From Lachnospiraceae bacterium (GTDB taxonomy: Bacteria; Bacillota; Clostridia; Lachnospirales; Lachnospiraceae): 37,820 bases of DNA. The position numbers and the translations under genes were made by a program. This document shows, piece after piece, positions 21,011 to 26,446 of this stretch. The DNA is taken from assembly GCA_017936785.1 (NCBI GenBank), contig JAGBEV010000017.1, positions 1 through 37,820 of the forward strand. Direction: 5' to 3'. The stretch's first letter is position 1, and every line of letters starts with the position of its first letter. Under the pieces are notes generated by a model, which was given only the letters and a program-made list of their open reading frames with translations, was not told the DNA's origin and did no database searches.

Positions 21011-21373
21011 TTATTTCGTTATGATGTCTGACACCCGAAAATCCAGAGACTCTATCGCTCGCTTTATCTCCTCCTGGTCCACAGGCCGGCTATACTCTAT
21101 CACTGCTCTGTTCTTTCGCAGGTTGACTTTGCAGACCACTCCTTCATATTTATTGATACGCCGTTCAATACTGTTTTTACAGTTATCACAATGCATTCCT
21201 TCTATCATGACCTCTATCTCTCCGATTTTGGGTGCATCCAGTTGTTTGGTTTCCTTCACAATATCTCCACCACCTCCACAACAGCTTCCCTGTCCACGGA
21301 CATGCTTTATCGTCGGTGAGATTGCCAGTATGATAATGATAATTAAAATTCCCAGTACAATATAAGTTCCCAT
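21011..21373 (-). CDS. Membrane-anchored heavy-metal-associated (HMA) domain protein
   Basis: The 120-residue protein begins with one membrane helix (residues about 4-22, mostly Ile/Leu), then a GSCCGGGG patch like that of FeoB-associated Cys-rich proteins, then an HMA ferredoxin-like fold with the metal-binding loop GMHCDNC (near residue 59). The tail ends in IESLDFRVSDI, the usual last HMA strand. It could pass a soft or transition metal to a membrane transporter on the cytoplasmic side. A promoter and a GTTAG-type operator precede it, shared in type with the DUF3793-flavodoxin genes, so it likely answers to the same metal signal. AAGGAAGGAG precedes the ATG. Confidence 0.8.
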   Translation of the reverse strand: MGTYIVLGILIIIIILAISPTIKHVRGQGSCCGGGGDIVKETKQLDAPKIGEIEVMIEGMHCDNCKNSIERRINKYEGVVCKVNLRKNRAVIEYSRPVDQEEIKRAIESLDFRVSDIITK

Positions 21374-21430
21374 TTATACCGCTCCTTCCTTTTATAACCA
21401 TGAGATTCCTGATTTACATAAATAGCAGAA

Positions 21431-21462
21431 CAACCAGAGTTAGCAACATCTAACTCTGGTTG
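21431..21462. promoter_or_regulatory. 13-bp inverted repeat holding operator site 1
   Basis: CAACCAGAGTTAG (21431-21443) and CTAACTCTGGTTG (21450-21462) pair perfectly around a 6-nt loop. The core GTTAGCAACATCTAAC (21439-21454) matches two sites before the DUF3793 gene. It lies just downstream of the -10 of the HMA gene, at about +4 to +19. No T-run follows, so it is an operator rather than a terminator. Confidence 0.65.
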
Positions 21463-21464
21463 TA

Positions 21465-21492
21465 ATCATACCATAAATTTAACATTTTTCAA
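21465..21492 (-). promoter_or_regulatory. Promoter of the HMA protein gene
   Basis: TTGAAA (21487-21492) and TATGAT (21465-21470) on the minus strand are 16 nt apart. The -35 overlaps the stop codon of the upstream DUF1275 gene. Confidence 0.7.
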
Positions 21493-22154
21493 GACTTTTC
21501 CCTGTCGATAAACATCATGAGAAAAGTTATCATTAAAAACACAGAACAAATTAAAATTGCCTGTTCTCCCAGCCACTTTATAGAAATATTCCCTATCACC
21601 GCTCCCAGCACAAAACACAAAATGACACCATAATACAACAGGCTCCTGCCAGCATAATCTTTCTCCCCGGTATTTATGAAATCACATAAATTCCGCGTAG
21701 CACTCCGAAGGTTGCCGATACACATGGTTGTTGCAATACCATTTCCGCGTATTTTACGAAAACTCTCCACCTGTATTCCGCAGGCAAGAGAGGTAAGACT
21801 ATTAGCAAGAAGATTCCTATCCTGCGGGAAAAAGCTCACTCCTGCCAAAATGAACGCCTCCAGCAGCACTGCTGTCTGTCTCCAGTGAAACCAGTTTTTT
21901 TCCTTTCCACGTATCCTTACCATATCAGCCAGAGCGATTCCCAGAGCAAATGCAAGCACTGGAAAAAAATAATGACCTGCCTGATGAAATTTCCCCTCAG
22001 ACAGATGGATACCAAACAACAGCATATTTCCTGTCTGCGCATTAGCAAATACATGGTCACGGCACAGGTAGGAATAGGCATCCATAAACCCACCTGCCAG
22101 GGCAAGTACAATTCCCAGTTCAATAGACTCCGACATCTGTTTGGAATGTTTCAT
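21489..22154 (-). CDS. DUF1275 (YoaK-type) membrane protein
   Basis: The 221-residue protein has about six membrane helices and the DUF1275 hallmarks AGGFMDAYSYL near residue 22, FANAQTGNMLLFGI near residue 36, and SLACGIQVESFRKIRGNGIATTMCIGNL in the middle. Function in the family is unknown; transport has been suggested. It follows DUF2325 by 73 nt on the same strand and precedes the HMA gene, so it may ride on the same metal-linked transcript. Confidence 0.88.
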   Translation of the reverse strand: MKHSKQMSESIELGIVLALAGGFMDAYSYLCRDHVFANAQTGNMLLFGIHLSEGKFHQAGHYFFPVLAFALGIALADMVRIRGKEKNWFHWRQTAVLLEAFILAGVSFFPQDRNLLANSLTSLACGIQVESFRKIRGNGIATTMCIGNLRSATRNLCDFINTGEKDYAGRSLLYYGVILCFVLGAVIGNISIKWLGEQAILICSVFLMITFLMMFIDREKS

Positions 22155-22227
22155 ATTTTATCACAGCTTTCTATTTAATGTCTTTCTCTATTTTAAGCAC
22201 TCCGTCTGCAATGTCAAGAGCGAAACA

Positions 22228-22509
22228 TTAGCTGCAGGCCTTCTCCAGAATCTCGTATAACGCATTCCCACTGCTGGTATGGCACCGTACGATATCCGCA
22301 TTACACTTTTCCGCCTCCGCAACAGCACAGCGTACCATCTTGTGGGATACCGTATTGGTAAATAAAATCAGCAGATCCGGAGAACCGATTTTGCTTTTCA
22401 GATTTGCTGACATCTGGGTAAAAATCTTCGCCTTACAACGGTATTCCTTACATATTTTCTTATATTGACAGACCATCCGGTCATGTCCTCCTACAATCAC
22501 TACACTCAC
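22228..22509 (-). CDS. DUF2325 small protein
   Basis: The 93-residue protein matches DUF2325: SVVIVGGHDRM at the start, a Cys-containing middle (KKICKEYRCKAKIFTQM) and a CNADIVRCHTSSGNAL end. The fold is probably Rossmann-like. Members often sit in ferrous-iron (feo) or flavodoxin gene clusters, which agrees with its neighbours here, but no activity is known. A 169-nt spacer with a structured repeat separates it from the flavodoxin gene upstream. Confidence 0.8.
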   Translation of the reverse strand: MSVVIVGGHDRMVCQYKKICKEYRCKAKIFTQMSANLKSKIGSPDLLILFTNTVSHKMVRCAVAEAEKCNADIVRCHTSSGNALYEILEKACS

Positions 22510-22568
22510 AATATTCCTCCTGTCCTTTTCTATTCCCTTTTCCCAGTTTTATAAAACAGCTCTGAACT

Positions 22569-22617
22569 GTAACGGCACAATCCTGTGACGTTTCCAGTCA
22601 TGCACTTGTACCGTTAC
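22569..22617. repeat. 49-nt structured inverted repeat between flavodoxin and DUF2325
   Basis: Arms GTAACGGCACAA (22569-22580) and TTGTACCGTTAC (22606-22617) pair with one mismatch and enclose an inner TGAC/GTCA stem. No T-run follows on either strand, so it is not a simple terminator. It may be an RNA processing or stability element in the transcript. Confidence 0.5.
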
Positions 22618-22678
22618 CCAGAACTATGCGAACCCCTGTGTCTTTTTTTGCAAGACTGCCCGGTTTTATTCGCCTATG

Positions 22679-23110
22679 TTAGATAGCTGCCAGCTGTTTG
22701 CCTAAACCATTGCATTCCGCCAATGCAGTATCATCCGGTGTTTCATTGCAGATCAATCCTTGTCCATTCAGCACGACCGCTCCTGCAGCGCTCATTCTGT
22801 CTTCCCAGTCACGCATCCATTGTCCATCACCCCAGCCGTAAGAGCCAAATAATGCAATGGTTTTCCCACCTGCAAAGCCTTCTACTTCCGTAACGAAAGG
22901 CTCCATCTCTGTTTCCTCCAACACTTCTGCTCCCATAGCGGGACAACCCAAAGCAAACGCATTTGCCTCCTTCAGCTCATCCATAGACGCATTTCCTACA
23001 TACACAACTTCCGCCTCTTTTCCAGCTTCTGTAATCCCCTGTCCAATGGCCTCTGCCATTGCCTGGGTGTTTCCTGACTGTGACCAGTAAACAACGTAAA
23101 TCTTATCCAT
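22679..23110 (-). CDS. Short-chain flavodoxin
   Basis: The 143-residue protein is a complete short-chain flavodoxin: FMN phosphate loop WSQSGNTQAMA (residues 9-19), then GCPAMGAE and FGSYGWGDG loops that hold the flavin ring, and the C-terminal NGQGLICNETPDD. Flavodoxins carry single electrons and often replace ferredoxin when iron is scarce. It lies 75 nt after the DUF3793 gene, downstream of the paired operators, so metal-responsive control is likely. GGAGAG precedes its ATG. Confidence 0.94.
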   Translation of the reverse strand: MDKIYVVYWSQSGNTQAMAEAIGQGITEAGKEAEVVYVGNASMDELKEANAFALGCPAMGAEVLEETEMEPFVTEVEGFAGGKTIALFGSYGWGDGQWMRDWEDRMSAAGAVVLNGQGLICNETPDDTALAECNGLGKQLAAI

Positions 23111-23185
23111 GAAACTCTCCTTTCTCAGTCACCTTTTTGACTTGACATCTTTTATTACTTATTCTTAATCTGATATTCTGCCGCA

Positions 23186-23800
23186 TCAAGAAATGCAGCC
23201 GTTTTGTATCAGAGAATAATTCTGAATAATCTCTACCAATCCCATTCCGCTGGAAAGCATCTGTATCAGCGTTTCCCGCGCATTTTCAAATTTCCGGAAC
23301 AAAACTACTTTTTCGGAAAGATTCTCATATACTTTCCAATAACCCGTATACAGACAATTCTCTCCCTCATTCTGTATAAATCCCCTTACATCCTCTATGG
23401 GATATCCCAAAAGCAGCCCCATTTCATGAGGGAATTCCTTGCCATCTTCCATATATCCCTGATAACGTACACGAAAATACGAAAGCACCTCTGATAAGGT
23501 AAGCTCCTGATATCCCATTTCCAGCAACAGCTGCTGTACTTTTTTTTCTGCCAGATAATCCTCCAGCTGCTGGCGGTTGTACAGCAAGACTGCTGTTTTT
23601 TTGCCGGTAACTGCTACAATATAATAGGAAATCCCTGTTCTTCTTAATATCTGTTTCACCTTGCCAGTATCCGTATTCTGAACCATCAATAAATTGGATA
23701 ACTTTAAACCGGCAATAAGGGGAGCACATTGAAATGCAATCTGCATTTCAATATCTTGTAAATCCATCCCTTGGACAAGTTCAAGCACATCCTGACTCAT
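23186..23800 (-). CDS. DUF3793 family protein
   Basis: The 204-residue soluble protein matches DUF3793: an N-terminal IAFQCAPLIAGLKLSNLL segment (near residue 23), a central LLYNRQQLEDYL, and HEMGLLLGYPIEDVRGFI (near residue 125) before CLYTGYWKVY. The family has no assigned activity but is often found with flavodoxin and iron-uptake genes in Clostridia. It is the first gene after a strong promoter whose -10 lies inside an operator, and it is followed by flavodoxin and DUF2325. AAAGGAG precedes its ATG. Confidence 0.85.
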   Translation of the reverse strand: MSQDVLELVQGMDLQDIEMQIAFQCAPLIAGLKLSNLLMVQNTDTGKVKQILRRTGISYYIVAVTGKKTAVLLYNRQQLEDYLAEKKVQQLLLEMGYQELTLSEVLSYFRVRYQGYMEDGKEFPHEMGLLLGYPIEDVRGFIQNEGENCLYTGYWKVYENLSEKVVLFRKFENARETLIQMLSSGMGLVEIIQNYSLIQNGCIS

Positions 23801-23815
23801 AGCTTCTCCTTTCGA

Positions 23816-23851
23816 GTTAGTTATATCTAACTTGTGTTAATAATATCTAAT
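23816..23851 (-). promoter_or_regulatory. Tandem GTTAG-type operators (sites 2 and 3)
   Basis: GTTAGTTATATCTAAC (23816-23831) and GTTAATAATATCTAAT (23836-23851) repeat with a 20-bp period, two helical turns. Site 3 covers the -10 and site 2 lies just downstream of the start point, as expected for a repressor. They share 11 of 16 positions with the site before the HMA gene. TTAG/CTAA arms recall DtxR-family sites, but the regulator is not in the window. Confidence 0.7.
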
Positions 23852-23868
23852 CCCTATCTTTCCGTCAA
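23840..23868 (-). promoter_or_regulatory. Promoter of the DUF3793-flavodoxin unit
   Basis: TTGACG (23863-23868) and TATTAT (23840-23845) on the minus strand are 17 nt apart, about 40 nt before the ATG. Confidence 0.85.
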
Positions 23869-26143: not shown

Positions 26144-26446
26144 CTATTCCTCTATCTCATTCTCAGAACCGACACTCTCTTCCTTTATGCTAAGTTCCTC
26201 TTCCCTCTGTGCCCTCTCTTCATTCATTTGCTGAGCTTCTGCATAAATATCCTCTGCATTTTCCTGAACCGTTGTTGCCGTCTTCATCACACAGTCCTTT
26301 GCCCGCAACACAGCTGCCGTGCAGCTGGTATATACCTTTTTGGCATCTTTGCTGGCAAGTACCTTGATTCCTGCTGTTCCAAATAAAACACCTGCTGCAA
26401 AAATACCTGTCTTCTTTACATCAACTTTTTTTAAAATATCTAACAT
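26144..26446 (-). CDS. DUF6110-like single-pass membrane protein (FezA-like candidate)
   Basis: The 100-residue protein has one hydrophobic segment (residues about 13-32, IFAAGVLFGTAGIKVLA) with small-residue spacing GVLFG that suits helix packing. A soluble helical stretch follows, then a very acidic tail (residues 70-100). The N-terminal pattern DVKKTGIFAAGVLFGTAG fits DUF6110 as I remember it. It lies 22 nt before the P-type ATPase and 21 nt after the small peptide gene. In ferrosome loci a small GxxxG/AxxxG-bearing membrane protein accompanies the ATPase; the match in role is inference. AGGAGG precedes its ATG. Confidence 0.65.
   Translation of the reverse strand: MLDILKKVDVKKTGIFAAGVLFGTAGIKVLASKDAKKVYTSCTAAVLRAKDCVMKTATTVQENAEDIYAEAQQMNEERAQREEELSIKEESVGSENEIEE

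Follow-up and report, generated by a model that had tools for sequence, protein, structure and literature searches.

In a stretch of 37,820 nucleotides (nt) from a Lachnospiraceae bacterium (contig JAGBEV010000017.1 of assembly GCA_017936785.1, positions 1 to 37,820 of the forward strand, called here the window), three copies of a 16-base pair (bp) site precede two genes, one for a protein of the DUF3793 family and one for a protein with an HMA domain. The conserved signal in these sites is the palindrome GTTAG-N6-CTAAC. This palindrome is very probably the operator of a short (about 120 amino acids, aa) two-domain repressor of the DtxR family, which would sense ferrous iron, shut down genes for the uptake and the saving of iron while the metal is abundant, and so control an iron-starvation regulon in Lachnospiraceae and some other Clostridia, in which the signal is widely shared. 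The observation of the three sites is confirmed: as the original prediction, made from the letters of the window, had it, they begin at 21439, 23816 and 23836 and agree in 11 of their 16 columns. They are given below on the strand of the genes that they precede.

23816..23831, minus strand: strong operator O1 of the DUF3793 promoter, GTTAGATATAACTAAC, matrix score 23.7, at about +1 to +17
23836..23851, minus strand: weak second operator O2, ATTAGATATTATTAAC, matrix score 10.2, exactly 20 bp upstream of O1 and over the -10
21439..21454, minus strand: probable operator O3 ahead of the HMA gene, GTTAGATGTTGCTAAC, matrix score 19.8 together with its promoter geometry

The palindrome is strictly conserved ahead of DUF3793 genes. 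Of 104 distinct regions of 150 nt ahead of DUF3793 orthologues, 53 contain a perfect GTTAG-N6-CTAAC. The regions come from 109 loci of family members and of named genomes, the named relatives being mostly Lachnospiraceae; two truncated DUF3793 matches, L138 and L139, were left out. In the same regions, the 12 other spacings from 0 to 12 give nothing, except for one region at N10; the 29 permuted arrangements of the same five half-site letters occur in none of the 104, and letter shuffles of the regions yield 0.015 on average. Conservation in orthologous promoters was one of the points on which the original prediction had offered to be refuted, and for DUF3793 it survives. With A or G and C or T allowed at the ends (RTTAG-N6-CTAAY), the site lies at most 60 nt from the start at 56 of the 109 loci, at 61–150 nt at seven and at 151–350 nt at 23; at several of the loci with a distant site, the start of a DUF2325 gene adjoins the operator. 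For the DUF3793 protein itself, 68 proteins from 103 listed open reading frames (ORFs) were aligned.

The window by itself makes a weak case, because the loose consensus proposed at first is not enriched in it and was derived from these same sites. That consensus, GTTARNNAYATCTAAY, matches the window 24 times with up to three mismatches (23.3 expected in shuffles) and was dropped as a search pattern; it gives way to the symmetric GTTAG-N6-CTAAC. An asymmetric pattern, ATTAGATATNNNTAAC, finds with one mismatch two forward and two reverse hits, against four and three for its control. The weight matrix used for the scores was built from 54 distinct orthologous sites, with the window's own locus (L031) left out; its training sites have a median score of 20.8 and a minimum of 9.3. 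A simulated window holds a mean of 0.17 hits that score at least 14 and of 0.4 that score at least 10, and the best single hit in 60 such windows reaches 22.7, so that a lone high score can be chance. A weaker match proposed at 26429, over the start of a DUF6110 gene, scores −2.7 and is rejected as a site. Since the statistics within the window are weak, the reality of the sites is decided by evidence from outside it. The lack of enrichment of the loose pattern is what chance repeats in an AT-rich intergenic region would produce, but strict conservation across many genera refutes such an origin for the 23816 copy and leaves this explanation a negligible probability.

In the window's 3.4-megabase genome, the perfect palindrome occurs 17 times and the pattern read backwards once. 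Eight of the 17 are intergenic, as judged by the surrounding ORFs: two lie where feoA and a short DtxR gene diverge, one precedes a third DtxR gene (with an inner ATG as start), two are in the window, and the others precede ilvC, a gene without a Pfam match, and an acyl-hydrolase-like gene that has an HMA gene behind it. When A or G and C or T are allowed at the ends, an additional motif appears before a third feoA-feoB pair. At both loci where feoA diverges from a DtxR gene, the relaxed ends also reveal a second site, RTTAG-N6-CTAAY, between feoA and feoB (L048:7076 and L047:3075). The perfect motifs at L003:1501 and L015:1501 stand before cbiC (cobalamin synthesis, with an overlap of the stop codon upstream of it) and before ilvC.

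The company of the palindrome is similar in the DUF3793 loci L058–L166. There, 87 of 95 perfect sites have the start of an iron-type gene, from a panel of 16 proteins, within 300 nt. These genes encode DUF3793 (63), DtxR (12), FeoA of two types (9 and 4), DUF2325 (8), enolase (4), FeoB (2), Fur (1) and DUF6110 (1); one site can be counted for two genes, and near-duplicate loci are kept among the 95. Seven control palindromes give 0–2 sites in the same loci, none near a panel gene; the share of 87 in 95 is inflated because the loci were picked for DUF3793, which leaves the contrast with the controls unaffected. The statement that the operator lies next to genes of the iron type is supported, with DUF3793, flavodoxin, feoA and feoB as the putative targets. 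Enolase genes are preceded by the operator at L236:1022, L237:3538, L074, L094 and L095, and in L236 the operator is followed by eno, DUF3793 and flavodoxin, in this order. In Shuttleworthella satelles (L163:3337-4528), one operator is found between divergent genes for DUF3793 and a DUF6110-like protein, the latter followed by a P-type-ATPase-like gene; the DUF6110–ATPase pair near the cluster of the window has no operator site.

The candidate regulator is encoded next to the palindrome. The genome of the window has three genes above the cut-off of PF01325, each adjoining a perfect site, and two of them are divergent from feoA-feoB; in all three copies both the DNA-binding domain (PF01325) and the metal-binding domain (PF02742) score above their cut-offs. 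The short DtxR protein is 119 aa long, with these two Pfam domains only; by Pfam, it has no C-terminal SH3-like third domain as in DtxR and IdeR. The palindrome is present in 15 of 36 distinct regions upstream of such genes (L200, with 101 nt upstream, being left out), with none at the other spacings from 0 to 12 and none for permuted half-sites. Its frequency follows the presence of this protein (cut-off E 1e-10; control, the reversed pattern). In the family, 139 of 150 genomes have this DtxR, with 841 motifs against 233 for the control, and in the 11 without it there is no enrichment (20 against 26). In the class outside the family (143 of 148 sampled genomes, five family members being removed), the counts are 283 against 175 in 87 genomes with DtxR and 34 against 103 in 56 without.

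An AlphaFold model of the short DtxR protein (predicted local distance difference test score, pLDDT, 92.3) resembles MntR, IdeR and DtxR in Foldseek, with a best E value of 1.9e-7 and query template modeling scores of 0.79–0.90 among the matches listed. Residues Glu12, His78, Cys100, Glu103 and His104 are conserved in 38 of 38 sequences. In terms of the ligand set of DtxR and IdeR (Met10, Cys102, Glu105, His106), the Cys, Glu and His are present in all 38 and the Met position is mostly Asn. The set of MntR (Asp8, Glu99, Glu102, His103) is not reproduced, with Asn in 35 of 38 at Asp8 and Cys in 38 of 38 at Glu99. According to the ligand lists quoted from PMC4805248, Cys rather than Glu at this place is the choice of DtxR. 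By model and alignment, the protein combines a two-domain fold of the MntR kind with a Cys ligand as in DtxR.

These features bear on a different assignment, in which the palindrome would be the operator of a manganese-sensing (MntR type) or multi-metal protein of the DtxR family and serve a general response to divalent metals. The closest solved structures, by sequence and by fold, are those of MntR; the MntR of P. gingivalis has Asp, Cys, Glu and His and binds Mn2+ there (PMC4805248, in the part consulted); and in one relative (L237) a gene for a ZIP-family transporter has a site. That site, at L237:907, reads TTAGGTTAG-N6-CTAACCTAA, with the arms of the classic iron box and a longer center. 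On the other hand, feoA, feoB and a flavodoxin operon are among the targets, the Cys at MntR Glu99 is invariant, and the NCBIfam equivalog models for MntR score far below their cut-offs (76.9 against 153 and 64.7 against 138 bits). An MntR-type operator is, on balance, improbable, and a ferrous-iron-sensing DtxR protein is preferred.

The geometry of the palindrome agrees with that of a single DtxR dimer. The classic 19-bp iron box, TTAGGTTAGSCTAACCTAA, contains TTAG-N6-CTAA twice, 5 bp apart; the two dimers sit on repeats 1 and 3 and on repeats 2 and 4, respectively, and a half site standing alone accommodates a single dimer (PMC8464063, as far as its text was available). The operator here contains this dimer unit, TTAG-N6-CTAA. 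The likeness of the TTAG/CTAA arms to DtxR sites, noted from the start, is supported. The accompanying remark that the spacing differs from classic boxes was mistaken, because N6 is the share of each dimer in the 19-bp box. With the IdeR/DtxR iron box of Actinobacteria, the operator has in common the quartets, the N6 and the place over the start or the -10 (for the latter, see the portion consulted of PMC10317159). It differs in being a single stand-alone unit, in having its conserved G and C outside the quartets (GTTAG...CTAAC, against TTAGG...CCTAA there), and in a regulator without the SH3-like domain. The half site TTAGGNNNNCCTAA of IdeR in Saccharopolyspora erythraea is likewise a single-dimer site with the same spacing, and its complex is termed the first reported single-dimer IdeR–DNA complex in the available text of PMC8464063. 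There it is a lesser target, whereas here, in another phylum, the single unit would be the usual operator of a gene set.

Bacillus subtilis MntR has a similar length and fold, and its dimers occupy neighboring sites: the MntR helix contacts DNA 4–7 bp from the center, and dimers bind 18-bp sites that are 1 bp apart (PMC11275975, from the part consulted). TTAG in the palindrome occupies the same positions, 4–7 bp from the center. The differences from B. subtilis MntR are Cys in place of Glu99, the iron-gene targets, and a period of 20 bp instead of 19; the 20-bp tandem of O1 and O2 nevertheless recalls the MntR pair and speaks for the manganese alternative. The helix residues His35, Pro36 and Lys41 of MntR align with Lys36, Lys37 and Ile42 here. 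Within the clade, position 36 is Lys in 32 of 38, position 37 is Lys in all 38, and position 42 is Ile (17), Val (19) or Arg (2).

The palindrome has a preferred place in promoters. When 54 promoters, that of the window among them, are aligned on the operator, a TTGACA-like box (5 of 6 letters) stands at -37 in 23; the box resembling TATAAT is found at -14 in 18 promoters and at -16 in 10. From these positions, the palindrome would begin at about +1. In the aligned promoters, the operator overlaps the predicted start point or the -10, as in DtxR/IdeR systems. The two promoters predicted in the window are:

23840..23868, minus strand: DUF3793 promoter, TTGACG-17-TATTAT, its boxes at the commonest positions relative to the operator in orthologues
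21465..21492, minus strand: HMA promoter, TTGAAA-16-TATGAT, its -10 preceded by TG

Counted from the first base of each -10 box, the strong copies start 14 and 16 nt further on; these are the two commonest distances in the alignment. The original prediction had placed one copy at the same point just after the start in both promoters and an extra one over the -10 of the DUF3793 promoter with a 20-bp period; the first statement agrees with the predicted elements, and the second has its counterpart in other promoters. A second copy at exactly -20 (at least 8 of 10 half-site letters) is present in 18 of the 54 promoters, the window included, and at 108 other offsets the same test finds 0.19 on average and never more than two. 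The -10 box itself accounts for part of this signal, though not for the conserved ATTAG directly ahead of it. A second unit at +5 or -5, as in the double-dimer box of DtxR/IdeR, occurs in none of the 54.

We infer the following mechanism. With Fe2+ held at a site with Cys100, Glu103 and His104, a single dimer would grip each palindrome, and the quartets TTAG and CTAA, at a distance of 4–7 bp from the center, would fill two neighboring major grooves. Seated at about +1 to +17, the repressor would block RNA polymerase. The DUF3793 promoter could take up a second dimer on the weaker copy 20 bp upstream, over the -10, probably aided by the first. When iron drops, the repressor would be released and allow production of DUF3793, of the Feo transporters and of flavodoxin, which can stand in for ferredoxin.

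The repressor of these promoters might instead belong to the Fur family: a Fur-domain gene (L047:5501-5971, PF01475) lies in the feo operon of C52, with feoB on one side and HMA on the other, and a Fur-like gene in L075 has a site near its start, though this site is flagged as lying inside an ORF. In delta-proteobacteria, similar targets (feoAB and flavodoxin) are under a predicted iron repressor of the Fur family (PMC545781, in the part available), with a repressor family and an operator unrelated to those here. By inspection, the motif is unlike the consensus of Fur-box GATAAT-type inverted repeats quoted there, whereas in half-site and dimer geometry it matches DtxR/MntR. It also flanks dtxR genes and follows the presence of DtxR (the comparison of presence was made for DtxR alone). 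Control by Fur is thus very improbable.

Several observations weigh against a simple DtxR operator. At 23 of the 109 DUF3793 loci, there is no RTTAG-N6-CTAAY within 350 nt; Peptostreptococcus, Schwartzia, Selenomonas and Anaerococcus are among the site-less loci. Likewise, 20 of 37 DtxR loci (one with 101 nt available) have none in the 350 nt upstream, so that dtxR genes commonly, but not always, have a site in front of them. In the window's genome, eight of the 17 perfect motifs are inside genes and one is over the stop codon upstream of cbiC; a search of this genome with relaxed ends that also allows a mismatch shows no enrichment (233 against 298 for the control). The reversed-pattern control is not neutral, as it exceeds the motif in class genomes without DtxR (the 34 against 103 above), and kinship is ignored in these counts. 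Genome G351 has no DtxR at E 1e-10 and yet 11 motifs against 1. In the protein, the residue at position 9, Met in DtxR and Asp in MntR, is Asn in 35 of the 38 sequences, the remaining three having Met (2) or Asp (1). Finally, the messenger RNA of a feoB gene of Roseburia intestinalis rises 3.8-fold in high iron and 1.8-fold in low iron (PMC4659462, in the part consulted); the rise in high iron is not what simple iron repression would predict.

The genes under the two promoters are co-oriented, from 23800 down to 21011:

23186..23800, minus strand: DUF3793 protein gene (PF12672, 183.9 bits against a cut-off of 25.1)
22679..23110, minus strand: flavodoxin gene (PF00258)
22228..22509, minus strand: DUF2325 gene (PF10087), with the operator close upstream in some relatives
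21489..22154, minus strand: DUF1275 protein gene (profile match)
21430..21463, minus strand: perfect 14-bp stem with a 6-nt loop around O3 (fold z scores -5.3 and -7.1)
21011..21373, minus strand: HMA-domain protein gene, with a paralogue two genes after feoB in the same genome

The DUF3793 protein has a confident predicted structure (pLDDT 94.9), for which comparison with solved structures gives no confident relative (best E 0.018). The contig of the window (G000:C60) belongs to a genome rated 8.77% contaminated, and a DUF3793 match is found in one of eight other members of the genus, at 32% identity; from this rating and this rarity, the cluster may be acquired or misplaced.

The copy at 21439, O3, has a particular setting: it forms the apex of the 14-bp stem, which lies 25 nt beyond the stop codon of DUF1275. 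The stem is possibly the terminator of DUF1275 or a 5′ hairpin of the messenger: besides the stem itself there is a hit in a terminator scan, and the tail, TCTGCTATTT, is interrupted. O3 could then be the tip of an intrinsic terminator with a chance match to the motif. The flanks extend the palindrome by 9 bp here, against 0–4 bp at DUF3793 sites, and a perfect site occurs within 200 nt upstream in 3 of the 30 best-matching HMA loci, the window's own included (starts of HMA orthologues being estimates from partial alignments). A further one, in L177, appears at -201 once 400 nt are allowed. Against this, the matrix score of 19.8 is close to the training median, predicted -35 and -10 boxes stand at -38 and -16, the tail is interrupted, the HMA orthologues in L191 and L194 have a site 30–31 nt before the start, another site with a 9-bp extension is known in L063, and operator and terminator can coexist. 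A terminator tip alone is thus rather unlikely, and O3 is probably an operator. The idea of the HMA promoter as an equal partner of the DUF3793 promoter is not supported, given the 3 in 30. An iron link of the HMA protein is plausible, because its paralogue lies two genes after feoB and matches the family of FeoB-associated membrane proteins just below the cut-off (26.8 against 27 bits). The 16-mer of 21439 recurs exactly in a relative (G036:C12), without the long stem. Several HMA orthologues (among L170–L172, L178, L180 and L190) follow a gene that by eye resembles a CsoR-type copper regulator, a hint that those copies serve copper.

A different palindrome, RTTAGC-N4-GCTAAY, is abundant in the genus of the window: 10–61 copies per genome in nine of nine genomes, against 0–1 for the reversed pattern (examples in L002, L006, L007, L013 and L021–L030). 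In the genome of the window, 20 of its 23 copies are inside ORFs of more than 200 codons and read L-A-x-A-N in frame, whereas about 0.4 would be expected from codon pairs; in 635 kilobases of named relatives, 1 of 14 is inside such an ORF. The peptide L-A-x-A-N is barely enriched in relatives (4 against 2.4).

The motif strings tried do not appear in the full-text collection that was searched, which lacks most subscription papers and the regulon databases, so that an earlier prediction may exist. A full-text search found no paper joining the DtxR family, Lachnospiraceae, operator and iron; for DUF3793, it gave one mention, in a fungal paper unrelated by its listing. The repressor family is known, and what appears to differ is the stand-alone single-dimer operator together with a regulon that contains DUF3793. 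The available text of PMC10317159 leaves open whether other genomes use single-dimer half sites.

Among the Lachnospiraceae are major butyrate producers of the human gut, which are exposed to swings in iron supply. It seems somewhat more probable than the contrary that the family, with scattered other Clostridia, runs its main iron regulon through the short DtxR protein rather than through Fur or a 19-bp box, with DUF3793 as a core member and the single-dimer GTTAG-N6-CTAAC as the standard operator, doubled at 20 bp in about one-third of DUF3793 promoters. If so, the half-site question would be answered for another phylum, and the system tests the natural use of one dimer per site by DtxR-family repressors. 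With a defined operator and a candidate regulator, the iron regulon of Lachnospiraceae becomes searchable in any genome, and DUF3793, a family of unknown function, gains a testable role in iron starvation.

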